Below, piece by piece: positions 22,633-38,137 of a stretch of 64,000 bases of DNA. Made by a program: the position numbers and the translations under genes. The notes under the pieces are model-generated. The model was given only the letters and a program-made list of their open reading frames with translations, made no database searches and was not told where the DNA came from. The stretch comes from Limibacillus halophilus (GTDB taxonomy: Bacteria > Pseudomonadota > Alphaproteobacteria > Kiloniellales > CECT-8803). How positions within the stretch are numbered: position 1 is the first letter of the stretch; every line of letters starts with the position of its first letter. Where the stretch lies: contig NZ_JACHXA010000004.1 of the NCBI RefSeq assembly GCF_014191775.1, positions 62,001 to 126,000 of the forward strand. The letters run 5' to 3'.

Positions 22633-24009
22633 TCAGCCTCCGCCCGTCGAGTAGACAGTGTTGGGCAGCCAAAGCGCGATGCCTGGGAAAACATAAAGCA
22701 GAACCATACAAATCAGCACCAAAGCGAGATAGGGCATCACACCCTTGAATATATGGACCAGCTCCACGTGCGGCGGCGCGACACCTTTCAGGTAGTAAGC
22801 GGACATCGCCATGGGCGGGGTCAAGAACGACGTTTGAAGGTTAAGCGCGACCAGTATCCCGAAAAACAGTGGATCGATCTCAAAATAGTGGACCAGGGGC
22901 AGGAAGATCGGCACGAAAATAATAATGATCTCCGACCACTCGAGCGGCCAACCAAGCAGGAAGATGATGATCTGGGCAATAATTAGAAAGAAGATCGGAG
23001 ACAGATCCAGCCCGATCACGAACTCCTGGATGAGTTTGTCGCCGCCAAGAACCGAGAACACGGAAGAGAACAGCCAGGAACCGACGAACATCCAGCACAC
23101 CATCGCGGACGTTCTCACTGTCAGGTATACCGACTCCCTCAGTCTTTCCCAAGTCAGCGCCCGATAAGCAAAGGCAAGGACCAGGCCGCCCAAGGCACCA
23201 GCCGCCGCCGCCTCCGACGGCGACGCCCATCCAAAGAGGATCGCACCGAGAACCGAAAGGATCAGAAGTGCCAGAGGCACGAAGGAGGTGAGCATCAACC
23301 AGAGAATCTGCTTCTTATCCACGCCTTCGACTTCTTCATCGGAGAGGCGAGGCGCAAGCTTGGGGTTCAACCAGGCACGCGTCACGACATAGATCATGTA
23401 CATGCCTGCAAGCAGAAACCCTGGGAAGATGGCACCAGCGTATAGCTGGACGATGGAGACGCCTGATGCAGCCGCATAAACGATCAGCATGATCGAGGGT
23501 GGGATCAAGATGCCTAGGCAACCACCGGCGCAGATCACGCCCGCCGCAAAAGAGGTATCGTACTTGGCCTTGAGCATGGCCGGAAATGCCAGCAAACCCA
23601 TCAGCGTTACAACAGCACCGATGATGCCGGTCGCCGTTGCAAAGAGCGCACAGGTCGCCAAGGCCGCGACGGCCATGGAGCCGGGCATCGAACGGGCGGC
23701 GACCTGGATGGAATAGAAGAGGCGGGCAACGATGTTGGCCCGCTCGACCACATATCCCATAAACAAGAACAACGGTATCGCCGTTAGAACGTCACTCGAC
23801 ATGACCTCATAGGTTTTCGAGGTGATGAGGAAAGAGAGGCGTCCCACGACGCCAGGATCGAGTATGGATGACATGTAGGAGGGATCGTAAAAGGCATAAA
23901 CACCGAATAGGACGCCCATACCCATGAGTGTAAAACAAATGGGAAACCCGAGCAAAATGACCAGGATGAACATGGCCAACATCATTACCGCGACTTGGGG
24001 GTCGGTCAT
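22633..24009 (-). CDS. dctM: TRAP transporter large permease (DctM)
   Basis: 458-aa inner-membrane subunit with about twelve to thirteen hydrophobic segments. PICFTLMGMGVLFG, GCLGILIPPSIMLIVYA and LNLQTSFLTPPMAMSAYYLKG are DctM hallmarks. It overlaps dctQ by 4 bp and precedes the amidase by 7 bp. The longer-than-minimal loops match the mannitol/chloroaromatic type of TRAP system. It uses the sodium gradient, not ATP. Confidence 0.93.
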   Translation of the reverse strand: MTDPQVAVMMLAMFILVILLGFPICFTLMGMGVLFGVYAFYDPSYMSSILDPGVVGRLSFLITSKTYEVMSSDVLTAIPLFLFMGYVVERANIVARLFYSIQVAARSMPGSMAVAALATCALFATATGIIGAVVTLMGLLAFPAMLKAKYDTSFAAGVICAGGCLGILIPPSIMLIVYAAASGVSIVQLYAGAIFPGFLLAGMYMIYVVTRAWLNPKLAPRLSDEEVEGVDKKQILWLMLTSFVPLALLILSVLGAILFGWASPSEAAAAGALGGLVLAFAYRALTWERLRESVYLTVRTSAMVCWMFVGSWLFSSVFSVLGGDKLIQEFVIGLDLSPIFFLIIAQIIIFLLGWPLEWSEIIIIFVPIFLPLVHYFEIDPLFFGILVALNLQTSFLTPPMAMSAYYLKGVAPPHVELVHIFKGVMPYLALVLICMVLLYVFPGIALWLPNTVYSTGGG

Positions 24010-24647
24010 TGCGGCTTACCTCCCGATGCGGCGTCACCGGTTATCTCTGGGCCGCCTGTGCTGACAAGAACCACGTCTTCATGCTGGTGCAGCAGCATGG
24101 TTTCCATTTCCTCCACATCATGAAGCCGATCGGGCCACGCGCCGTCCTTGATGCAAATGATGCAGCGTAGGACCTCCGCGATACCTTGCATAAACAGCAG
24201 GACAGCCGCGATCGGGATGATTGATTTGAACTGTGCGATAGGGACACCGGCAGGGCTGTTAATCGACACCTCGCCTGTACCCATGTTGAAACCCCAGGAT
24301 TGTGCGGCGTACTGTGCGCCGACGATGATCATCGCGATAATGCCAGGGAAAAACAGTACGAAATAAAGCGTTATCTCGATGATGGCCTGAACTCTGGGCT
24401 TCAGGAGTCTGAAAATAACATCGCCGCGAACGTGGCCGTTCCGAGACAACGTGTAGGCGCCCGCCATCAAAAACAGCGCCCCGTACATGATGTAACTCAG
24501 ATCAAATGCCCAGGCCGTTGGGGCTCGGAAGAGCTTCCGAACAATAATCTCGTAGCTTACGCCCAAGGTCATTACCAAGACACACCAAGCGAATGCCTTG
24601 CCTGTCCAGGCGCTGAATTTGTCGATTGAGAAAAGGAAATCACGCAT
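24006..24647 (-). CDS. dctQ: TRAP transporter small permease (DctQ)
   Basis: About 213 aa with four membrane segments, including LMAGAYTLSRNGHVRGDVIF, the conserved DctQ region. The start at 24647 (MRDFLFSIDKFSAW) is favoured by a GGA-GGGA-like sequence upstream. A longer form from 24743 would add a hydrophobic N-terminus, MLVFWIVVGTLQSLARS, and cannot be excluded. The C-terminus ends in an acidic cytoplasmic tail. It overlaps dctM by 4 bp. Confidence 0.88.
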   Translation of the reverse strand: MRDFLFSIDKFSAWTGKAFAWCVLVMTLGVSYEIIVRKLFRAPTAWAFDLSYIMYGALFLMAGAYTLSRNGHVRGDVIFRLLKPRVQAIIEITLYFVLFFPGIIAMIIVGAQYAAQSWGFNMGTGEVSINSPAGVPIAQFKSIIPIAAVLLFMQGIAEVLRCIICIKDGAWPDRLHDVEEMETMLLHQHEDVVLVSTGGPEITGDAASGGKPQ

Positions 24648-24756
24648 GCGTTCCCATCCGTTCGCGTTGTCGGGTGGTGTTCGTAATGCGCCGCTTCTGG
24701 CTAAGCTTTGGAGCGTTCCAACGACAATCCAGAATACGAGCATTCACGGGTGCTTA

Positions 24757-24780
24757 AGGGCGGCACCGGAGCGCCGCCCT
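24757..24780 (-). terminator. Hairpin between dctP and dctQ (attenuator or mRNA stabiliser)
   Basis: Arms AGGGCGGC (24757-24764) and GCCGCCCT (24773-24780) with an 8-base loop. No U-run follows on the minus strand, so it is probably a partial attenuator or 3'-end stabiliser that keeps the binding protein more abundant than the permeases. Confidence 0.45.
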
Positions 24781-24815
24781 ATCAGCGTTATGCGATTTAG
24801 CTCATTACTCCAGGA

Positions 24816-25979
24816 TCAGAAGTTAATCTCACCCGGGAAGTAATGTTTGAAGGCCAGCTTATAGTCTGCTGAGTTGATCAGATCGTAGAAGGCGACCCGA
24901 TGTGACCATTCGCGCTGGGAGTCCACAACTTTCTTGAAGAAAGCGTCCTTGTTCAATTCTTCAAGAACCTTATCCCAAGACGCTAGCTGTGCCGCCATCA
25001 CGGAATCCGGCGTGCGGTGCACCTTGACACCAGCCTCGTTGATCAGCTTCTGCAGATCGTTCGAGTAGTTATCCATGGCCGTTGCATAGTTTGAGGTGTT
25101 GGCTGCTTCAGCCGAATACTCAAGAATCTTCTGGTGCTCTTCCGGCAGAGATTCAAAGCGTGCCTTGTTGAAGATGATTTCGAAGAATTCTGCAGCTTGG
25201 TGGTAAGAACCCATCATGTAGGTCTTCGAAACGTCCTGAGCGCCAAACCGGCTATCGGACGTCGGGTTGTTGTACTCAAAGGCTTCGATAACGCCACGCT
25301 CCAGGGCTGGCACGATTTCGCCGCCCGGCAACTGAGTCACCTGCAGGCCCATACCCTGCATGATGTCCGTAGCCAAGCCAACGGTACGATACTTGAGGCC
25401 TTGGAGATCGTCTGCGCTCTTGATTTCCTTCTTAAACCAACCAAGCGGCTGAGTCGGCATCGGCATGCAGAAGAACCCAACAAGGTTCAAGCCGAGGATA
25501 TCCTGCACCAGCTCTCTGTATAGCTCTTTACCGCCGCCCTTGTGAATCCAGGCCAGAATTTGCGAGGCGCTGGCGCCGAACACAGGACCGGTTCCAAAGA
25601 GGGATGCTGCTTTATGCTTGCCGTACCAGTAAGCGGTAACTTGGTGCCCGCCATCCAGAACACCATTATGAACGGCGTCTTGGACCTGGAACGCGGCCAC
25701 AACCGCACCGGATACAAGGTATTCGATCTTGAGGCGACCACCGGCCATATCCTCGACGCGCTTGACGTATTCTTGCGCCATTTCATTGAAAATATCCGCC
25801 GCACCCCAGGCACCTTGCATGCGCAACGTTACGGTCTGAGCCCGTGAAACCTGCGGAAATGCGATGCTGGCGGCAGCGGCTGCACCGGCAACGCCAGCGC
25901 CCTTTAGAAACTTACGACGATCTGGCGTTTGAGCCTTTTCTTCTGAAACCTTAACCTTCTTTTCGGAGACCTTTGTCAT
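24816..25979 (-). CDS. dctP: TRAP transporter substrate-binding protein (DctP)
   Basis: 387 aa with a twin-arginine-type leader (DRRKFLKGAGVAGAAAAASIAF, positions about 20-41, written here in two parts as DRRKFLKG and the following Ala-rich stretch). The mature protein starts TVTLRMQGAWGA. LKYRTVGLATDIMQGMGLQV and the PGGEIVPALERGVIEAFEYNNP segment are those of the mannitol/chloroaromatic DctP7 group, in which acids such as 2-oxo or hydroxy acids are bound. First gene of the TRAP-amidase operon. Tat export would suggest cytoplasmic folding before export. Confidence 0.92.
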   Translation of the reverse strand: MTKVSEKKVKVSEEKAQTPDRRKFLKGAGVAGAAAAASIAFPQVSRAQTVTLRMQGAWGAADIFNEMAQEYVKRVEDMAGGRLKIEYLVSGAVVAAFQVQDAVHNGVLDGGHQVTAYWYGKHKAASLFGTGPVFGASASQILAWIHKGGGKELYRELVQDILGLNLVGFFCMPMPTQPLGWFKKEIKSADDLQGLKYRTVGLATDIMQGMGLQVTQLPGGEIVPALERGVIEAFEYNNPTSDSRFGAQDVSKTYMMGSYHQAAEFFEIIFNKARFESLPEEHQKILEYSAEAANTSNYATAMDNYSNDLQKLINEAGVKVHRTPDSVMAAQLASWDKVLEELNKDAFFKKVVDSQREWSHRVAFYDLINSADYKLAFKHYFPGEINF

Positions 25980-26548: not shown

Positions 26549-27910
26549 GTGAAAAAGCAATTTTACAGAGTATCTGCCGCAGCCGTAGCGTTGCTCGTGG
26601 GTATGGGAGCAACCGGCGCGCAGAGTGCAACGCTGAGTGAGGCGATTGCTCAGGCATTGGGTTTTAATCCACGCATTAAAGCAGCAGACAGCAACCGGGA
26701 GGCAGTCAATTACGAGTTGCGTCAATCCCGTTCATTCTATCTGCCACAGGTTGATGCGACCGCGGGCATAGGTGTCGCGTCGATCAACGATTCGATCACC
26801 CGGAGTTCCGGAACAGACGACTACAGCACGATGCAGCCGGAGGAATACGGCATTATTCTCCAGCAGCGTTTGTTCGATGGCTTCGAGACCGACAGCCTAG
26901 TCGCTCGCGATAAAGCACGGTTCAAGGCGGCCAGCCGCAGGGTCTATGAGACTTCGGAATTTTTGGCGCTGGATGTGACTGAATCCTACCTCAACGTCGT
27001 CCGTGCACAGAACTTGTTGGCTTTGGCCGAGGAGAACGCTCGGATTCACGAGGCAATCCTCGATTCCTTGCGCCAGCGGGGCAGTGGCGGCGTAGGCAAT
27101 CGTGCCGACATCGACCAGACGGAAGCGCGTTTGTTGCGCGCCCGTTCCGTCGTCGAGGATACGGAGAACAGCCTTCAGGATGCTCGCGCCTCCTATACGG
27201 CGCTCGTCGGTGAGCTGCCACCTGCGCTTGACGCCCCGGGCTGTCCGACCGGCAGCATACCCCCGGGTGAAGCCGAAACGTTGGCTCAATTAATTGCCCA
27301 GAACCCGACATTGAGGGCTTTGGATGCCGACGTGGAGGCCAACGACGCCCGTGTCGACCTTTCTGAGTCTCCGCTTTATCCGCGGTTGTCGGTTGAGGCG
27401 AGTTCAACCTACCGCGACGACCAAGACGGTGCGGAGACCTGGGAGTGGGATAATCGCGTCATGCTGATGATGCGCTGGAATCTTTACAGCGGCGGTCGCG
27501 ACGTTGCTGGTAAACGTGAAGCGGTGGCGCGTCTTGGACAATCGAAGTTCGAACGCAGCGTCGCGTTGCTGCAGGCTGAGGAAGAAACCCGGCAATCGTG
27601 GAACGCGCTGCGTGCATCGCAACGCCGCACCGGACTGTTGACTGACGCCGTTGGCTCGTCGCGGGCAACCCGTGATGCCTACCGTGAACAGTTCCGCGTC
27701 GGCAATCGAACGCTCCTTGATGTGCTGGATGCGGAAAACGAAGTCTTCGTGGTCAGCAGCGAGTTGGTGGATTCACAAACGGTTGAGTGTTTCCAGCAGT
27801 ATCGTATCCTCGCGCTGACGGGTGGTTTGCTCAGGTCGGTCGATGTTGCCGCGCCAGCGACGACCGATGAAACGCCACCTTCGTTTGAAGACACTATCTT
27901 AGTTGAGTAG
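26549..27910 (+). CDS. TolC-family outer-membrane channel (LapE-like)
   Basis: 453 aa with a signal peptide (about 1-27, ending GAQSA). The mature start TLSEAIAQALGFNPRIKAADSNREAVNYELRQS is the first outer-membrane-efflux domain. A second begins at TLAQLIAQNPTLRALDADVEANDARV, giving the usual two-repeat TolC architecture. RVGNRTLLDVLDAENEVF is the typical C-terminal helix. It starts with GTG, 8 nt after AAGGGG. Placed at the left edge of the type I secretion block, it is the probable outer-membrane partner of the ABC and HlyD proteins at 33.7-37.3 kb. Confidence 0.92.
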   Translation: MKKQFYRVSAAAVALLVGMGATGAQSATLSEAIAQALGFNPRIKAADSNREAVNYELRQSRSFYLPQVDATAGIGVASINDSITRSSGTDDYSTMQPEEYGIILQQRLFDGFETDSLVARDKARFKAASRRVYETSEFLALDVTESYLNVVRAQNLLALAEENARIHEAILDSLRQRGSGGVGNRADIDQTEARLLRARSVVEDTENSLQDARASYTALVGELPPALDAPGCPTGSIPPGEAETLAQLIAQNPTLRALDADVEANDARVDLSESPLYPRLSVEASSTYRDDQDGAETWEWDNRVMLMMRWNLYSGGRDVAGKREAVARLGQSKFERSVALLQAEEETRQSWNALRASQRRTGLLTDAVGSSRATRDAYREQFRVGNRTLLDVLDAENEVFVVSSELVDSQTVECFQQYRILALTGGLLRSVDVAAPATTDETPPSFEDTILVE

Positions 27911-27927: not shown

Positions 27928-28260
27928 TTGGCTGACCAGGCGAGCAATTCCCTGGATTTGTTTGGAGGCGAGGCGCCGGATGCGAATGCTCCGGCGCCTG
28001 CCGACACTTGGGTGCTGGACCTTGGCGACCTAATTGCTGACGCCCAAGGTGAGATCGTTGTGGCGGAAACCGCGGGAGCGCATCTTACCATCACCGCCAG
28101 CGCGTCCATTTCGGCGACAGGCTTGGCTGAAGCGCATACGACGAGCGCCGGTTTCGATGTAGATGGCTACAATTTTGTCCGTTTCGACAACGGAATTACA
28201 CTCTATTACGAAGATGGGATGGATCTGTCCCTTCTCGCTCAACACGGCACAACTGGCTGA
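27928..28260 (+). CDS. Small acidic protein of unknown function, downstream of tolC
   Basis: 110 aa, no cysteine, no signal peptide or membrane segment, strongly acidic. The N-terminal third is Ala/Pro/Asp-rich; the C-terminal half (GFDVDGYNFVRFDNGITLYY) looks like beta strands. It would start with TTG at 27928, 17 bp after the tolC stop, behind AAAGGCGGG. It could be a small type I secretion substrate, since it lacks an N-terminal signal, or a cytoplasmic accessory. I do not recognise a family. Co-transcription with tolC is likely from the spacing. Confidence 0.5.
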   Translation: MADQASNSLDLFGGEAPDANAPAPADTWVLDLGDLIADAQGEIVVAETAGAHLTITASASISATGLAEAHTTSAGFDVDGYNFVRFDNGITLYYEDGMDLSLLAQHGTTG

Positions 28261-28318: not shown

Positions 28319-29053
28319 TCAGGCGCCGAGCGCTGGGACACGCGCGGCAGCTTTTGGTGGTGCAAACCAGGCAATGTAATTCGGCGGCGTTTCCGCCCGA
28401 CGCTGCAAGCGGATGAAACTGATTTCCGTTGCGGTTAATTTGCCTGGCAGAAGCACAAGCGCCTGGCGGACTGAAAGTTCCGTCTGGCCGGTCACCAAGC
28501 CATCCCAGAAGCGGGCGAAGGATTGGCCCATTTGCAGCCGTAGCAATGACCCCAAATCCGCGCCGACCAACGTCCTTCGTTCACGTCCTAGCCAATTCAG
28601 AACAGATGCGTTGCAGTCTAGAATCGTTGCCTGCGCCGAAAGAAGAACGCCGGGGCAGGGGGTCAGGTGAAATACGTCAAGAACCTCGGATGACGGCTCA
28701 TCTTTCTTGCTGGCTTTCTTGAGCGAACTTCCTTCCATACTGCCGAATGCAAGGCGGGCCAGACAGTCGAGCATGCAAACGCCTCTGAGGTAAGCCGTCA
28801 GATTGCCGCTCACATAATCCCTGCTCATACGGCCAATGAGCGGACCAAGTTGCCGCTTCTCAATCCTTGCCACCTCTTCGAGGTACTCCCAAAAAACTTC
28901 TTCCAGACGAATGGAGGTTCGCTTTTTCCTGAATTGTAACGTCCGCGTGCGCGTCGTTAAGGAGCGGACCGGGGCACGCTGCGGTGCTGCGTGAGGAAAC
29001 CCGCCCCTGTCCGGGGGAGTTGCTTTGGGGGGCACTGTCACGGAGTTAGCCAT
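28319..29053 (-). CDS. Ribbon-helix-helix / PAS-domain regulator
   Basis: About 244 aa. After a basic N-terminal region comes an RHH_4-like DNA-binding domain (RTSIRLEEVFWEYLEEVARI, then GNLTAYLRGVCML). The C-terminal half is PAS-like, with FHLTPCPGVLLSAQATILDCNASVLNWLGRERRTLVG followed by a strand-rich segment to the end, described here in pieces: TPCPGVLL, DCNASVLNWLG and TATEISFIRLQRR. PAS domains sense small ligands, redox state or light, but no heme or flavin ligand can be assigned. ATG at 29053 is chosen over 29077, which would leave almost no leader after a likely -10 at 29090-29095. It is divergent from the adhesin gene, so it is the likely local regulator. Confidence 0.72.
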   Translation of the reverse strand: MANSVTVPPKATPPDRGGFPHAAPQRAPVRSLTTRTRTLQFRKKRTSIRLEEVFWEYLEEVARIEKRQLGPLIGRMSRDYVSGNLTAYLRGVCMLDCLARLAFGSMEGSSLKKASKKDEPSSEVLDVFHLTPCPGVLLSAQATILDCNASVLNWLGRERRTLVGADLGSLLRLQMGQSFARFWDGLVTGQTELSVRQALVLLPGKLTATEISFIRLQRRAETPPNYIAWFAPPKAAARVPALGA

Positions 29054-29086
29054 ATCAGTCCGATCGATAAAATTCATTTAAACAAG

Positions 29087-29100
29087 CATAATATATTATG
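29087..29100. promoter_or_regulatory. 14-bp palindrome in the RHH-PAS / adhesin promoter region
   Basis: CATAATATATTATG is a perfect palindrome in the gap between the divergent regulator and adhesin genes. On the minus strand a TTGTTT / TATATT pair with a 16-bp spacer overlaps it, giving a possible promoter for the regulator. RHH proteins commonly bind short symmetrical sites near their own start, so autoregulation is plausible. AT-rich palindromes also arise by chance, so the call is tentative. Confidence 0.45.
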
Positions 29101-29217
29101 TCGCATTTAGTAAACAAAGTATTGTCCGCCTTCCGATTCCACGTCAAAGTGTCGTCGAATACAAATTAAGACTGTGGGAGAGGTGTGCGCAGCGCGCCCG
29201 AAACGGGAGATAAGAAG

Positions 29218-32200
29218 ATGTCGGAAAAGTTGACACAGATCGCTCAGAGTGAAACGGCCCTCATATTGACGCCGCCAGCTGCTGGAGAGGTCATTCGGGT
29301 TGAACTCTCGGATCAACCGTTGCAGTTCAATTTCAATATCGATCAAGCGACTTTTTCGATCGAAGGCAACGACCTTGTGATTACTTTTGCCAATGGCGGT
29401 ATGATCATTGTCGAGGACTATGTGGTCGACGCGCCTTTAGGCGTCGGTTCAATCATTCTTGCTGATGGCACGGAACTGGTTCCCGCAGAAGTCGGTGCCC
29501 GGCTTGAAACGGCGCAGACGATCGAGCAACCGGCGGCTGGTGAGACCATCAGTCTTCTCGTCGAACCAAACCAGGCTTTCGTCTTCAACTTCGACCCGGC
29601 TTCCGCAACGATTCAGATTGATGGCGATAACCTGATTTTGGTGTTTGCCGATGGCGGCCAGATCGTATTGGAGAATTATTTCGCGCCAACTCCCGGCAGC
29701 GAGTTTACGCCTTTCACGCTTCTCGCGGACGGTAGCCCGCTGTCTGGCGATCTTATCGCGGCGCTGGCAATTCAGCCTGCTGCCGGACCGGCCGCGCCGA
29801 CGGATCTGACGACGCCGCAGCCGAGTGATAACCCACAGGGCGGCGGCGGTGAATTCGAAACCCCCGGAACGACGCTGTTGGCGGGTGAGAATCCGTTGAA
29901 TTTGTTGGGCCCGGAGCATGAGGACCAGGGCGTTCCGCCTTTGCCCATCGACGACCAGCTTCCGCTGCCTGAGGAAGAGCTGCCGGTCAACTTGCCGCCC
30001 GATGCTATCGATAACGACTACGTGGCGGACGAAGACAATCCCATCAACGGCAACATCGTGACCGACGAGACCGGTGACGGCGTTGACAGCGATCCGGACG
30101 GCGACACGCTGACGGTGATCGCGGTTGACGGTGACGGCGGCAACGTCGGCACGCAGATCGCGTTGGGCAATGGCCTGCTGACGGTAAACGCCAACGGCAC
30201 CTACAGCTTTGACCCGAACGGCGGCTACGAGAGCCTGGGCGTGGGTGAGTCGACCAGCGAGAGCTTCACCTACACGATCAGCGACGGCAACGGCGGCACG
30301 GACACGGCGACGGTGACCATCGTCATCAACGGCGTGAACGACGCTCCCGACGCCATCGACAACGACTATTCGACCGATGAGGATACGCCGGTGGGTGGCA
30401 ACATCGTGACCGACGAGACCGGTGACGGCGTCGATAGCGATCCCGAGAACGACACTTTGACGGTGATCGCGGTTGATGGTGACGGCGGCAACGTCGGCAC
30501 GCAGATCGCGTTGGGCAATGGCCTGCTGACGGTAAACGCCAACGGCACCTACAGCTTTGACCCGAACGGCGGCTACGAGAGCCTGGGCGTGGGTGAGTCG
30601 ACCAGCGAGAGCTTCACCTACACGATCAGCGACGGCAACGGCGGCACGGACACGGCGACGGTGACCATCGTCATCAACGGCGTGAACGACGCTCCCGACG
30701 CCATCGACAACGACTACTCCACCGATGAGGATACGCCGGTGGGTGGCAACATCGTGACCGACGAGACCGGTGACGGCGTTGACAGCGATCCGGACGGCGA
30801 CACGCTGACGGTGATCGCGGTTGACGGTGACGGCGGCAACGTCGGCACGCAGATTGCGCTGGGCAATGGCCTGCTGACGGTAAACGCCAACGGCACCTAC
30901 AGCTTTGACCCGAACGGCGGTTACGAGAGCCTGGGCGTGGGTGAGTCGACGAGCGAGAGCTTCACCTACACAATCAGCGACGGCAACGGCGGCACGGACA
31001 CGGCGACGGTGACCATCGTCATCAACGGTGTGAACGACGGCCCGTCCATTTCCGCAACGGCGACCGCAGTCGTCTCGGAAGAGGGATTGCCCGGCGGTAT
31101 TCCGGACACGGTCGGCACGGACGATACCACCGACTCAATCACGGCCAACGGTTCCTTTACCGTTAGCGACCCGGATGGCGATGCCTTGACGGTCGTCTTC
31201 AACAGCGCGCCGGCAGACGGGTTCCTGACGGTCGATGGCGTGGATATAAACTGGAGCGGCGTTGGCACGCAGACTTTGACCGGCACCGGTGGCGGCACGA
31301 CGATCACTATCACGATCGACAATACCGGCGCATATACGGTGGCGATTGACGGTCCGGTGGATCACGCAAATGGTGCGATCGAAGACGACCTCGACTTCAA
31401 CGTCGGCGTGCTGGTTTCCGATGGCAACGGCGGCAGTGCGACTGGCACCCTGACGGTGACCATCGAAGACGACATGCCGATCCCGAGCGCCGACTTCCTG
31501 TTGGCGGACAATGCGCCGGGAACCTACAACGGTGATATGGGACTGCAGTTCGGTGCAGACGACGGTGCCGTAGGTGGTCTCACGGTGACGGGTCTGCCGA
31601 CCGGCTTCACGGCCAGTGCGGTCTCGGAGAATCTGGACGGATCCTACTCGACCACCATTACGGGCGATAACGGCTCCGAATTCGAACTGACGGTGTTCAG
31701 CGATGGCACATACAGTTTCGAGGTGGTGAATATCCTGCCGCCGGTCGAAACCTTGCTGTCATTGACCAATCTACCGAACTCCGGTCCGCATGCGCCCGCG
31801 TACGAGAACATTGTTGGTGATTTCGGCCTGATCTTCGAGGGCGACAAGGACATTACGAATAATGGCGGTGCAGCCTTCATTGCTGATAGTGACGGCGCGA
31901 ACGTTTCTGGGCAGGGTGTTGGCGTGTTCAACAACAACGTGAACACCAATGAGGCGCTCAGTATCAAGTTCGCCGATCCGGCAAGTCTTGGCGACACCAC
32001 GGTTATCGGTGATACGACGCCAATTCCGGTAACCATCGCCGATATTTCCACGATTGTTGTTTCGCAGTGGAGCGCCGGTGAAGACCTGATCATTAAAGTA
32101 CTGAAAGACGGCGTCGTGCTGGATGAGGGCACCGCAACGGCGGGTTCACCGCTCGGCGGTGACGTGGCGCTCGATATCGTCGGCCTTGACCCAGCAAACT

Positions 32201-32859
32201 ATCCTGATGGCATCGATCAGATTCTGATCATCGGCTCCTCCGGCAGCACGAACCTGAAGGTCGTGGGCTTGGGCATCATCGAGTCCGATGCCGCCAGTGA
32301 CCAGACGTTCCAATTCGACGTGGTCAGCACCGACCGGGATGGCGACAGTGCAACCTCGCCCTTGACCATCACCGTTGATGGAAACGGCGATGGGATTGCC
32401 CAAATCAACGGAACGAGTGGTGAAGACCATCTGGTGGGCGGCAGCCTGGCTGATCTCATCACCGGTTTTGCGGGTGCGGATACCTTTGTTGGCCAGGGTG
32501 GCGACGACGAGATCACTCTCGGTGTCGATGCCTCGACCAATGACAATGCCTCCGACACGGTGGTCATCGGCGTCGGCGATGGGGTCGATACGATCTACGG
32601 CTTCGATGTCAGCGACCCGGCCGGCACCGGCGACTTCCTTGATGTCTCCGAGCTCTTCACCGATCCGGCGGGCTTTGTCAGCTTCGACGGCAGTGCCGAC
32701 GTCAACGGTGACGCAATCAATGACTACGTGGTCAGCGTCAGCGCCGACGGCGGGCCGGCTGTGCAGGTGGCCATCCTCGATGGCGCAAGCCTCTTCAACA
32801 GCACGGGCAATGCAGCGGCGGATCTGGCGGACAACGTCAGCGCGAATTCGCTGGTATAA
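29218..32859 (+). CDS. RTX/VCBS-repeat type I secreted adhesin (LapA-like, compact)
   Basis: 1213 aa, acidic, cysteine-poor, with no N-terminal signal. Residues about 20-185 are two copies of an ~85-residue module, each opening with PAAGE and containing FNF...I.G..L.. .FA.GG.I..E.Y. A third PAAG lies at 187-190. Residues 262-609 are three near-identical 116-residue VCBS/cadherin-like repeats. A T1SS-143-like domain (about 610-757) and two further beta-rich domains follow. An RTX nonapeptide stretch near 1065-1090 (GEDHLVGG, GGDDEITLG) and a C-terminal secretion region complete it. ATG at 29218 follows GGGAGATAAG. The AAG motifs resemble the TAAG site that LapG cuts in LapA. It is small for this family. 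Confidence 0.88.
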   Translation: MSEKLTQIAQSETALILTPPAAGEVIRVELSDQPLQFNFNIDQATFSIEGNDLVITFANGGMIIVEDYVVDAPLGVGSIILADGTELVPAEVGARLETAQTIEQPAAGETISLLVEPNQAFVFNFDPASATIQIDGDNLILVFADGGQIVLENYFAPTPGSEFTPFTLLADGSPLSGDLIAALAIQPAAGPAAPTDLTTPQPSDNPQGGGGEFETPGTTLLAGENPLNLLGPEHEDQGVPPLPIDDQLPLPEEELPVNLPPDAIDNDYVADEDNPINGNIVTDETGDGVDSDPDGDTLTVIAVDGDGGNVGTQIALGNGLLTVNANGTYSFDPNGGYESLGVGESTSESFTYTISDGNGGTDTATVTIVINGVNDAPDAIDNDYSTDEDTPVGGNIVTDETGDGVDSDPENDTLTVIAVDGDGGNVGTQIALGNGLLTVNANGTYSFDPNGGYESLGVGESTSESFTYTISDGNGGTDTATVTIVINGVNDAPDAIDNDYSTDEDTPVGGNIVTDETGDGVDSDPDGDTLTVIAVDGDGGNVGTQIALGNGLLTVNANGTYSFDPNGGYESLGVGESTSESFTYTISDGNGGTDTATVTIVINGVNDGPSISATATAVVSEEGLPGGIPDTVGTDDTTDSITANGSFTVSDPDGDALTVVFNSAPADGFLTVDGVDINWSGVGTQTLTGTGGGTTITITIDNTGAYTVAIDGPVDHANGAIEDDLDFNVGVLVSDGNGGSATGTLTVTIEDDMPIPSADFLLADNAPGTYNGDMGLQFGADDGAVGGLTVTGLPTGFTASAVSENLDGSYSTTITGDNGSEFELTVFSDGTYSFEVVNILPPVETLLSLTNLPNSGPHAPAYENIVGDFGLIFEGDKDITNNGGAAFIADSDGANVSGQGVGVFNNNVNTNEALSIKFADPASLGDTTVIGDTTPIPVTIADISTIVVSQWSAGEDLIIKVLKDGVVLDEGTATAGSPLGGDVALDIVGLDPANYPDGIDQILIIGSSGSTNLKVVGLGIIESDAASDQTFQFDVVSTDRDGDSATSPLTITVDGNGDGIAQINGTSGEDHLVGGSLADLITGFAGADTFVGQGGDDEITLGVDASTNDNASDTVVIGVGDGVDTIYGFDVSDPAGTGDFLDVSELFTDPAGFVSFDGSADVNGDAINDYVVSVSADGGPAVQVAILDGASLFNSTGNAAADLADNVSANSLV
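30001..31044 (+). repeat. Three tandem 348-bp VCBS-encoding repeats
   Basis: Units at 30001-30348, 30349-30696 and 30697-31044, each coding 116 residues of the adhesin. Identity is very high at DNA level. The pattern is mosaic: in the 5' part unit 1 matches unit 3 better than unit 2, while in the 3' part units 1 and 2 agree and unit 3 carries a few silent changes. This points to recent duplication or gene conversion, and copy number may vary between strains. Confidence 0.95.
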
Positions 32860-33747: not shown

Positions 33748-35913
33748 ATGGATCAGGCCGACGTATTGAAAGCTATTGGGGCAGATGCTGATAGGAATGT
33801 AGCCGGCCAAAGCGCCGATAGTCCGGTCATGAGTGCCGGCATCGCTCTTTCCAAGCTTGCCGGTCGGCCGGTTTCGCCCTTGCAATTGCGTCATCATATG
33901 GGTGAGCGCAACGATTTGGAGAGCTTGGGCCGCAGCCTCAAGGCTATTGGGTTGCCTGCGAGTATCTCGCGGGCCCGCAAGCTTCAAGCGATAGCGCCTA
34001 GGCACTTTCCCTGTTTGCTCGAACAGCAAGACGGCAAGGCTTCGGTTCTCCTGCGTTTCATTACCCGCACACGGGTTCAAATTTGGAATCCAGAATCGCG
34101 AATGGCCGAGGTTGTCGAATGTGACGAACTTGCCAAGTCGTTCACCGGCCGCTTTCTGGTGGTTGGTGGAGCAGGCGAGGCGGGTAACCGTTTTGAACTG
34201 GCGGCATCGGCCAGCCGCCGTGGCTGGTTCTGGCAAACGCTCAGATCATTCTGGCCGGTTTACGGCCACGTCATTATCGTCTCTTTCCTAATCAATTGCT
34301 TCGCACTGTCGATCCCGCTTTTCGTTATGAACGTTTATGATCGGGTCGTGCCAAACCAAGCTATTGCGAGCTTATGGGCGCTTGCAATAGGCGTCATTCT
34401 GGCGTTGTCATTCGATTTCCTGTTCCGCAATTTGCGCAGTTATTTCATCGATCACGCAGGGCGCACGGCCGATAGCGTGATTGGATCCCGTCTAATGGGC
34501 CAGCTCTTATCGCTGCGGCTGAAAGAGCGCCTCGGACAGGTCGGAACTTTCGCCAACTCCTTGCGGGAATACGAGAACATTCGCGAGTTCTTCTCTTCCA
34601 GCACGATCAGCGTGCTGGTCGATCTGCCATTCGTGCTGTTGTTCATTCTGGTTATATATCTGATCTCGGGTCCCTTGGCTTTCGTGCCTCTGGCGGCACT
34701 TCCTTTGGTTCTGTTGTTCTCGCTTTTACTCCGGATCCCGATGCGCAGGTTGACGGAGCGGAACCTGCAGGACGCCGGCACGCAGCACGGCGTCATTGTC
34801 GAGGTGACGGCCGGGTTGGAGACCATTAAGTCGAGCGGCGCCGAAAGCCTGTTCATGGATCGTTGGGATCGTGCCATCGAACGAAGCTCCGAGACCTCGC
34901 GGCAACTACGTTTCTACTACACTGTTTCAACGGCCTTTACGCAGTTTTCGGTGCAGATGGCGACGGTTGTCATCATCGTCTGGGGCGTCTATCTGATCAA
35001 AGACAATCAAGTCTCCGTCGGTGCTCTGGTCGCCGCTACCATTCTGACCGGTCGGTCGCTGGCCCCGCTTGGCATGATGTCGAACATGCTGTTGCGGCTT
35101 CAGCAGTCACTGTCTTCCTTGAAGCGGCTGAATGCCTTCATGAAATTGGAATTTGAAGATTACGGCGCCGGGCGCCTTTCATCGATCCTGGAAGAAGGCG
35201 GGTTGGACATGCGCCAGGTCGTCTTCAGTTATCCCGACGCCAAGCGTCAGGCGCTCAATGGCGTGAGTTGCCGCATCCGCCCGGGCGAGAAGGTCGCAAT
35301 ATTGGGGCGCATCGGTTCAGGCAAGAGTACGGTTGCTCGGATGATGGTCGGCCTTTATGACCCCGAAGAGGGCAGCATCTCGCTCAACGGCATCGATCTG
35401 GCGCAGTACAACCCCGCGGACTTGCGGCGCTATGTCGGCTATGTCGGGCAGGAGAATTTTCTCTTCTCCGGATCGATCAGAGAAAACATTGGGATTGGCG
35501 CACCGCTTGCAGATGAGGAAGCGATCCACCGGGCGGCGGATGTCTCCGGTGTCTCCGAGTTTGTGCGGCAGTTCCCTGACGGTTACGAAACCCCGGTGGG
35601 CGAGCGCGGCGCCTCCTTGTCCGGCGGACAACGGCAAACGATTGCGCTAGCGAGGGCACTGGTGCTCGATCCGTCGATTCTCATACTCGATGAACCGACG
35701 AGCCAAATGGATCAAGGTTCGGAGGCTCGGTTGCGTGAGCGGTTGACCGAGTACACCAAGGACAAGACACTTATCATCATAACCCATCGCACTTCGTTGC
35801 TTTCACTGGTGGACAGACTGATCGTCATCGACGCGGGTCGTATCGTGGCGGACGGACCGAAAGAAAAGGTTTTACAAGACCTGAACCAGGGAAAAGTGAA
35901 GGCGGCGGAGTAG
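33748..35913 (+). CDS. Type I secretion ABC exporter with degenerate C39 domain (LapB-like)
   Basis: 721 aa. Residues about 25-145 form a C39-peptidase-like domain without the catalytic cysteine, as in exporters of uncleaved RTX proteins. A six-helix ABC membrane domain follows (about 165-450). The ATPase has Walker A GRIGSGKST near 519-527, signature LSGGQRQTIALARAL and Walker B SILILDEPTSQMD. It powers export of the adhesin through HlyD and TolC partners. The HlyD gene follows 12 bp later. Confidence 0.93.
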   Translation: MDQADVLKAIGADADRNVAGQSADSPVMSAGIALSKLAGRPVSPLQLRHHMGERNDLESLGRSLKAIGLPASISRARKLQAIAPRHFPCLLEQQDGKASVLLRFITRTRVQIWNPESRMAEVVECDELAKSFTGRFLVVGGAGEAGNRFELAASASRRGWFWQTLRSFWPVYGHVIIVSFLINCFALSIPLFVMNVYDRVVPNQAIASLWALAIGVILALSFDFLFRNLRSYFIDHAGRTADSVIGSRLMGQLLSLRLKERLGQVGTFANSLREYENIREFFSSSTISVLVDLPFVLLFILVIYLISGPLAFVPLAALPLVLLFSLLLRIPMRRLTERNLQDAGTQHGVIVEVTAGLETIKSSGAESLFMDRWDRAIERSSETSRQLRFYYTVSTAFTQFSVQMATVVIIVWGVYLIKDNQVSVGALVAATILTGRSLAPLGMMSNMLLRLQQSLSSLKRLNAFMKLEFEDYGAGRLSSILEEGGLDMRQVVFSYPDAKRQALNGVSCRIRPGEKVAILGRIGSGKSTVARMMVGLYDPEEGSISLNGIDLAQYNPADLRRYVGYVGQENFLFSGSIRENIGIGAPLADEEAIHRAADVSGVSEFVRQFPDGYETPVGERGASLSGGQRQTIALARALVLDPSILILDEPTSQMDQGSEARLRERLTEYTKDKTLIIITHRTSLLSLVDRLIVIDAGRIVADGPKEKVLQDLNQGKVKAAE

Positions 35914-35925
35914 GGAAGCCAAAGC

Positions 35926-37254
35926 ATGACACGCGGGCATGAAGCCGACGAATTGATCGACCTAGCCTTGATGGAGGAGCGCGCCGCCCGCTCGGGAAGC
36001 CGCTTTGCCTACATCCTGAGTCTGCTGACGGTTGCAGCACTGGTTACATTCTTTGTTTGGGCGGATAGGGCCGTTCTCGAAGAGGTCACGCGGGGTACTG
36101 CGACGGTTATTCCTTCGAGCCGCACCCAAGTGATCCAAAATCTCGAAGGCGGCATTATCGACGGACTACACGTGTCGGAAGGCGATATCGTGTCACCCGG
36201 CGATCTGTTGGTGACGATACGTAACGAGATAGCGCAGAGCGCCTTTGCCAATGCCTACACGCGATACTACAGCCTACTTGCTTCCACGGCGCGGCTGGAG
36301 GCTGAGGTGTCGGGTAAGGAAGCACCCACTTTTCCCAAAGAGGTAATTGCCGAGGCACCGGAGATGGTTGCCCAGGAACTGCGTCTCTTCAACGCCCGTC
36401 AGGATCAGTTGAACGCCGGCTTGCAAGTGCTGCAAACAGCAGCTGACTCGGTGGATCGCGAGATCATTGAGTTGAAGGCCAGGCATGATGCCGTTACGGC
36501 GACCCTTTCGCCGGCCCGTCGTGAACTATCCATGCTGCGCCCTCTTGCCAGCCGGGGAATCGTCTCCCAAGTCGATGTGCTGAGGCTCGAGAAAGAAGTC
36601 GCCTCCCTGTCAGGAGAAGCGACGACCGTTGAGCGCTCCATCGAACGGGCCGAGAGCAATGCCAAAGAAGCGCGAGAACGGGTGGTAGAAGCCGTTTTGG
36701 GCTTCAGGAGCGATGCCTTGGCCCAACTCAATGAGCAGCGTGTCGATTTGAAGTCTATTGCGTCTCAGATCAATGCTGAGCAGGACCGGGTACAGCGGAC
36801 CGAGGTACGTGCACCCGTTCGTGGCACCATCAAGCAGCTCTATAAGACTACGTTGGGTGGCGTTGTTCGTCCTGGTGAGACGATCATGGAGATTGTTCCG
36901 CTCGACGATACTCTGTTGGTCGAGGCGGAAATCACGCCGAAGGATATCGCGTTCCTTCACCCCGAACAAAATGCGGCCGTCAAAATGACGGCGTATGATT
37001 TTTCCGTCTATGGCGGATTGGTTGGCACCGTAGAGCGAATCAGTGCCGACACGATTGTCGATCAGGAAGGTAGAAGTTTCTTTAAAGTCTATGTACGCAC
37101 CAACAAGAACTACCTCGAGAAAGACGGCGAGGTCTTGCCAATAATACCGGGAATGACGGCTCAGGTGGATATCCTAACCGGCCGGAAGTCGGTCTTAGAG
37201 TACCTCAGCAATCCAATCGTGAATTGGAGAGAGGACGCATTGCGGGAACGGTAA
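35926..37254 (+). CDS. HlyD-family periplasmic adaptor (LapC-like)
   Basis: 442 aa with a short cytoplasmic N-terminus, one membrane segment (about 27-46, ILSLLTVAALVTFFVWA), a lipoyl-type half-motif (VIQNLEGGIIDGLHVSEGDIV), a long coiled coil (about 130-300) and the closing RAPVRGTIKQLYKTTLGGVVRPGETIMEIVP, given here as RAPVRGTI and GGVVRPGETIMEIVP. It ends with the conserved GMTAQVDILTGRKSVLEYL. It bridges the ABC exporter and TolC. A terminator follows. Confidence 0.93.
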   Translation: MTRGHEADELIDLALMEERAARSGSRFAYILSLLTVAALVTFFVWADRAVLEEVTRGTATVIPSSRTQVIQNLEGGIIDGLHVSEGDIVSPGDLLVTIRNEIAQSAFANAYTRYYSLLASTARLEAEVSGKEAPTFPKEVIAEAPEMVAQELRLFNARQDQLNAGLQVLQTAADSVDREIIELKARHDAVTATLSPARRELSMLRPLASRGIVSQVDVLRLEKEVASLSGEATTVERSIERAESNAKEARERVVEAVLGFRSDALAQLNEQRVDLKSIASQINAEQDRVQRTEVRAPVRGTIKQLYKTTLGGVVRPGETIMEIVPLDDTLLVEAEITPKDIAFLHPEQNAAVKMTAYDFSVYGGLVGTVERISADTIVDQEGRSFFKVYVRTNKNYLEKDGEVLPIIPGMTAQVDILTGRKSVLEYLSNPIVNWREDALRER

Positions 37255-37459: not shown

Positions 37460-38137
37460 ATGAATTCCGACCCGATATTTCACCCCTTCACGAAACAATT
37501 TCTGAGAATTCCGTCTTTCTGCCTGGCGGTAATATTCCTTTTGGCTATGACGGTCGATACCATGGCTGCTTCCAACTCGATCGCCGGCGCGGCATCCTTT
37601 CGACATGCTGCGCTAGGGAATCTCGTCAGCTTGTCGACGGATATGGTGCCGAAATGGAGCCGGGTAAGAACGGACCTGAAATCGGTCGGGAGAGGACGCG
37701 TAGCGCTCGCTCGGTCGCAGCACACGCGCTCGTGGAGCAGATGGGGGCATCTCGTCGAGAGAAAGAAAGCCGTCACCCTTGGGGCGTTGGCAGAAGGTAT
37801 TCATCGCCGACTGCAAAAGGTGGCGTATCGAGAAGATGGCGACGGTGATGTTTGGCAAACACCGGAGGAAACGCTAGCCGCAATGGCGGGCGACTGTGAA
37901 GACCAAGCAATCTTGGGTCTCTCGCTAGCTTTGGCCGCGGGAGTGCCACCTTCAGAAGTCGGCTTGGCCATTGGTTATGACAAATACGGTCGAGCACACG
38001 CCATTCTCGCGATTTTCGATGGAGACCGCGTCCTTGCGGTCGATATCAACGAGCCGAAGGTGCAGGAAATCGAAGCGAGTGGGTTCCAGGCGCGCATGGT
38101 GACGTTTGTCGATCAGGTCTGGATCACGCGAAATTGA
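37460..38137 (+). CDS. LapG-like periplasmic transglutaminase-type cysteine protease
   Basis: 225 aa, BTLCP family (bacterial transglutaminase-like cysteine proteinase). A signal peptide covers about residues 15-37. The triad is visible: C146 in AGDCEDQAILGLSLAL, H180 in GRAHAILAI and D195 in LAVDIN. The acidic E147/D148 next to the cysteine match the calcium-dependent LapG type. In Pseudomonas, LapG cuts the N-terminus of the LapA adhesin to release it. Start and AAGGA Shine-Dalgarno are clear. It has its own transcript after a terminator. The adhesin at 29.2 kb with its PAAG motifs is the natural target; this is inferred. Confidence 0.87.
   Translation: MNSDPIFHPFTKQFLRIPSFCLAVIFLLAMTVDTMAASNSIAGAASFRHAALGNLVSLSTDMVPKWSRVRTDLKSVGRGRVALARSQHTRSWSRWGHLVERKKAVTLGALAEGIHRRLQKVAYREDGDGDVWQTPEETLAAMAGDCEDQAILGLSLALAAGVPPSEVGLAIGYDKYGRAHAILAIFDGDRVLAVDINEPKVQEIEASGFQARMVTFVDQVWITRN

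Follow-up and report, generated by a model that had tools for sequence, protein, structure and literature searches.

An RHH–PAS fusion protein and a co-inherited small acidic protein at a Lap/Bap-type adhesin secretion locus in Limibacillus halophilus and its relatives

Introduction

The control of giant adhesins exported by type I secretion systems (T1SS) is known mainly via c-di-GMP and the LapD/LapG proteins. In a 64,000-nucleotide stretch of the Limibacillus halophilus genome (contig NZ_JACHXA010000004.1; the window), the gene for a predicted DNA-binding protein with a second, sensor-like half faces an adhesin gene, raising the question of what such a protein might regulate and in response to what. 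A preliminary description had read it as a ribbon-helix-helix (RHH) domain joined to a PAS domain in a one-component regulator that could tie an intracellular signal to surface adhesion. If that is broadly right, a PAS–RHH switch at adhesin loci would offer marine Alphaproteobacteria a second way, open to testing, of coupling the state of the cytoplasm to attachment at surfaces. A literature search with access to few subscription journals returned no paper on an RHH–PAS fusion.

Domain architecture of the RHH–PAS protein

The gene lies at 28319..29053 (-) and encodes a protein of 244 aa, as delineated by the open reading frame, the RHH_4 and PAS_4 matches and the orthologues; taken from its first start, the frame spans 28319-29077 (-), with an in-frame ATG at 29077 that would yield 252 aa. 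In profile HMM searches of the kind the preliminary description had proposed, the RHH_4 DNA-binding domain (28772..28951 (-); residues 35-94) is recovered in the window copy with a Pfam E-value of 3.2e-12 (PF13467; 46.7 bits, above the cut-off of 25). It is matched in all 22 of the 22 orthologues, and this part of the AlphaFold2 model (pLDDT 71 overall) forms a strand-helix-helix. The C-terminal half (28355..28702 (-); residues ~118-233) matches PAS_4 in the window copy below the cut-off (residues 131-217; 9e-4; 19.9 bits against 23.1), but 19 of the 22 orthologues match it, the best at 4.5e-7, and the family profile matches the PAS chains of FixL, an HTR-like protein and PpsR. Residues ~118-233 of the model retrieve PAS structures in Foldseek (E 2e-6, probability 1.00) and superpose on 3mfx with a VIA-align Z of 12.8 (rmsd 2.7 over 107 residues). 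The PAS assignment, therefore, is founded on fold and family matches rather than on the window copy's own PAS_4 score, and by the predicted structure the C-terminal half is a PAS domain. Hence, the proposed fusion is borne out, and a C-terminal half unlike PAS, the outcome named as telling against it, is not what we found: this copy is sub-threshold by sequence, yet orthologue profiles and fold are those of PAS.

The alignment retains invariant PAS core residues (N148, G156, G164, P203-G204 and W229). No His or Cys is invariant in its PAS part; thus, the domain is without the usual heme or LOV-flavin anchoring residue. The protein is basic (pI 10.1). With a DNA-binding and a sensor-type domain combined in one polypeptide, and helped by a conserved operator-like palindrome (below), we can soundly infer a one-component transcription regulator.

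One-component regulators and RHH–sensor fusions are already known; what appears new is PAS as the sensor of an RHH domain, together with a co-inherited small protein. NikR, an RHH domain fused to a ligand-binding ACT domain, shares the plan of an RHH reader and a small-molecule sensor in one protein; its sensor is ACT, whereas that of the RHH–PAS protein is PAS, with no known metal site. With the latter, PAS joins the few sensor domains known to be fused to RHH. The DNA-binding half resembles BP1543 (PDB 3kk4, RHH_4; phmmer 2.5e-6) in its RxSIRLE ribbon and two helices, though that 125-aa protein matches over the RHH part only and the RHH–PAS protein adds the PAS domain. On the sensor side, the likeness is to PpsR and FG214, which also couple a cytoplasmic PAS fold to DNA binding: the Q-PAS1 domain of PpsR is the top Foldseek match of the model, and the FG214 PAS aligns with a VIA-align Z of 12.5. 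Both, however, bind DNA through helix-turn-helix domains rather than RHH, FG214 being described as HTH-PAS (PMC13060918).

A Lap/Bap-type secretion locus

As the preliminary description had it, the adhesin gene (29185..32859 (+); 1224 aa) is divergent from the RHH–PAS gene; the two lie 131 bp apart. Its product matches Big_9, Cadherin_4, VCBS and BapA_N, with Big_9/VCBS/cadherin-like repeats, and has an RTX-like C-terminal end. At the N-terminus (29221-29760) are two BapA-prefix repeats, each opening with PAAGE; the prefix is picked up over two stretches slightly under threshold (26.6 bits versus 27 in Pfam, 32 versus 35 in NCBIfam). We take these repeat starts to resemble the di-alanine site at which LapG cuts LapA.

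The wider T1SS context had not featured in the preliminary description, nor had a small acidic reading frame at 27928-28260. On one side stands a TolC-family outer membrane protein of T1SS (26549..27910 (+); TIGR01844 9.9e-85, above cut-off). Beyond the adhesin follow an LssB/LapB-type permease/ATPase (33748..35913 (+); TIGR03375 7.8e-250, 830.9 bits against a cut-off of 693.1), an HlyD-family membrane fusion protein (35926..37254 (+); HlyD_3 7.5e-20) and a weakly matching LapG-like periplasmic cysteine protease (37460..38137 (+); Peptidase_C93 6e-6, 26.5 bits against a cut-off of 27; NF045674 LapG 3.8e-5), whose counterpart in the related locus L031 is clearer (Peptidase_C93 1.8e-16, over cut-off). 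Judged by these profiles, the window locus reads as a Lap/Bap-type system, with TolC, ABC, HlyD and adhesin components and a protease that weakly resembles LapG. It is comparable to LapA-LapBCE-LapG in its LssB-type ABC, HlyD and TolC and, by near-threshold matches, in a BapA prefix with PAAGE motifs and a LapG-like protease. To our knowledge, the described Lap/Bap systems have neither a dedicated RHH–PAS regulator nor an acidic small protein. Upstream of TolC (22633-25979) lie a TRAP transporter (DctM, DctQ and DctP by resemblance) and an amidase; Dct-like genes are also found near RHH–PAS in L122.

Phyletic distribution and linkage to secretion

The survey of the architecture and its neighbors, likewise proposed earlier, covered 58 Kiloniellales genomes and recovered the full-length fusion in 32 of them, including Kiloniella, Pelagibius, Denitrobaculum and other Kiloniellaceae, and in 15 of 385 sampled Alphaproteobacteria, spread over eight families including the window's own; full-length relatives are ~30% identical. 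Among the genome contigs, a single-sequence scan gave no match and an alignment-based scan gave 31 loci, 29 of them full length; plasmid searches for the versions from family f44 gave no match. On these sequence comparisons, the fusion is not a one-genome accident.

Within Kiloniellales, an LssB-type T1SS ABC protein is encoded by all 32 genomes with RHH–PAS and by 8 of the 26 without it (Fisher 3e-9, a test that counts these related genomes as independent). RHH–PAS is physically linked to TolC, ABC and HlyD genes in much of the order; in Kiloniella (g4) the ABC and HlyD genes are unlinked to it. Adhesin linkage is patchier. In three loci of family f138 (L130-L132), RHH–PAS is divergent from ~790-aa RTX proteins with BapA-prefix-like N-termini and the TIGR03661 secretion domain, with which the window adhesin aligns at both ends. 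In three loci of f44 (L125, L127 and L128), it stands directly upstream of adhesin ORFs of 2.7-2.9 kaa, with T1SS-143 repeats shown for that of L125. As read from gene order, adhesin adjacency recurs independently in f138 and f44. In most Kiloniellales, RHH–PAS has no adjoining adhesin gene: it is flanked by the small acidic ORF and TolC and, on the other side, by a 113-120 aa protein. By that comparison, the window's adjacent adhesin is partly lineage-specific. Hence, of the link to adhesion drawn in the preliminary description, the part that stands is that the fusion recurs with adhesin/T1SS loci elsewhere; direct adjacency holds in some lineages only.

The flanking 113-120 aa proteins, which start with MPYV or MPFV (A4; L031:8495-8833), are encoded upstream of RHH–PAS in most Kiloniellales and f44 and have no Pfam match. 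A query that matched 30 relatives found none in the window genome; they therefore fall outside the window system.

The small acidic protein

The conserved small acidic protein (27928..28260 (+); 110 aa) is encoded 17 bp after TolC, convergent with RHH–PAS. Its family spans 93-151 aa with a pI of ~4, and searches of Pfam, NCBIfam and PDB returned no family match. It occurs in the same 32 of 58 Kiloniellales as RHH–PAS (concordance 58/58) and, class-wide, in 15 of 15 RHH–PAS genomes and only one other. In family f1 the window genome has both genes and a sister genome neither, and f4 and f5 split likewise; hence, common descent by itself accounts poorly for the co-occurrence. On these counts, the small protein is the most conserved partner of RHH–PAS and the least expected element of the locus, which suggests that the two work as a unit.

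It is convergent with RHH–PAS in 29 of 29 named Kiloniellales loci and often adjoins T1SS genes on their strand. In L129, RHH–PAS, the small ORF, ABC and HlyD follow one another on one strand; in f138, the small protein and RHH–PAS are inherited together, yet not adjacent. A beta-rich domain is predicted, for which Foldseek returned no match at E <= 0.001 and VIA-align a best Z of 4.0, under the informative level; the comparison with an RTX block at the C-terminus of one T1SS protein was similarly weak (Z 3.9). An hhalign comparison with neighboring adhesin C-termini, using an alignment of 4 rows only, found no match. Derivation of the small ORF from an adhesin fragment was also considered and set aside, profile comparison with adhesin N- and C-termini being empty. 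From its genomic associations, we propose that the small protein is T1SS-linked, as a substrate, an accessory or a ligand of the regulator.

A candidate operator upstream of RHH–PAS

Between the RHH–PAS and adhesin genes lies a perfect 14-bp palindrome, CATAATATATTATG (29087..29100), a candidate operator that occurs once in the window and, across the 3.48 Mb genome, is matched exactly nowhere else. In the 6.8 kb lying upstream of RHH–PAS genes, the pattern CATA-N6-TATG has 11 occurrences (one of them the window's own), against 2 in the remaining 487 kb of the loci, counts to be read in light of the pattern having been framed after viewing the same sequences and of the non-independence of close relatives. 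We found the palindrome before RHH–PAS alone, with none in front of TolC, ABC or the small ORF. The region upstream of RHH–PAS in ~19 relatives, from an alignment whose rows were selected by the block ends, contains a promoter-like TTGC-N19-TATGAG block, which is absent from Kiloniella (g4); sites from a generic promoter scan of the window's intergenic region did not align with it. The palindrome falls within the -35/-10 spacer of the relatives' element, making repression the likelier direction of control.

Proposed mechanism and alternatives

We favor, with reasonable though far from complete confidence, the reading that RHH–PAS is an autoregulated one-component regulator that specifically serves a Lap-type adhesin together with its T1SS, because its RHH_4 and PAS domains, the T1SS co-occurrence and linkage, the recurrent adhesin adjacency, the concordance with the small protein, the palindrome and the promoter-like block converge on it. 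Several observations weigh against it: in Kiloniella (g4) the promoter-like block is missing and ABC and HlyD are unlinked, most Kiloniellales have no adhesin gene adjoining RHH–PAS, the palindrome is confined to the RHH–PAS gene, and the pair in L121 has T6SS-like rather than T1SS neighbors. Domains, locus and co-inheritance are observed features; DNA binding, its direction, the signal and the role of the small protein are proposals. In outline, an RHH–PAS dimer would use its RHH ribbon to contact the CATA-N6-TATG palindrome within the promoter region common to the two genes. It would thereby control its own expression and, in L. halophilus, that of the divergent adhesin as well, more likely as a repressor. 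DNA binding might then change in response to a partner protein or to a cytoplasmic signal perceived by PAS, the small acidic protein being a candidate T1SS-linked partner. Such a scheme makes a link to surface adhesion plausible.

Alternatively, the protein might regulate only itself and the TolC and small-protein genes, the adhesin being a chance neighbor. The different small protein on the other flank in most Kiloniellales, and a palindrome that tracks the RHH–PAS gene alone, are in keeping with this; we nevertheless regard it as rather unlikely, since f138 and f44 each place an adhesin next to RHH–PAS independently and no RHH–PAS genome of the order lacks an LssB-type T1SS. Antitoxins are common among RHH proteins, and the pairing of an RHH protein with a small partner gene, one basic (pI 10.1) and the other acidic (pI ~4), could evoke a toxin–antitoxin-like module. 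That is highly improbable, for the genes are convergent rather than operonic in the window and Kiloniellales and unlinked in f138, the synteny is orderly and the small ORF often sits beside same-strand T1SS genes; gene order and distribution led us to reject it, the single operon expected of a type II system being absent.

A further alternative concerns the PAS step only and is compatible with a regulator of adhesin and T1SS: PAS might be a plain dimerization module without ligand, regulation being achieved by protein partners or protein level. The lack of an invariant His or Cys in the PAS alignment would fit, but the core residues are invariant and many PAS domains bind ligands non-covalently, leaving this possible but doubtful. 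More speculatively, the small protein might itself be a T1SS substrate that accumulates when export is blocked or absent and then acts on RHH–PAS, much as FlgM acts on its sigma factor in flagella. We consider this a long shot; if true, it would be an export-linked circuit in which adhesin and T1SS expression would report a working secretion channel.

Additional genomic contexts

A few loci depart from the arrangements above. In L121 (2138-6032; family f23), the pair of RHH–PAS and small protein lies beside ORFs that by eye are Hcp-like and ClpV-like T6SS components rather than T1SS genes. In f44, extra copies of the small protein are found beside FecR-domain proteins (L160-L163; Pfam-confirmed in L162), and the RHH–PAS-linked copy in L125 adjoins a CHASE2-PAS-GGDEF-EAL protein. 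Finally, Kiloniella (g4) encodes a second, short copy of ~90 aa away from its RHH–PAS locus (L158:9153-9419).
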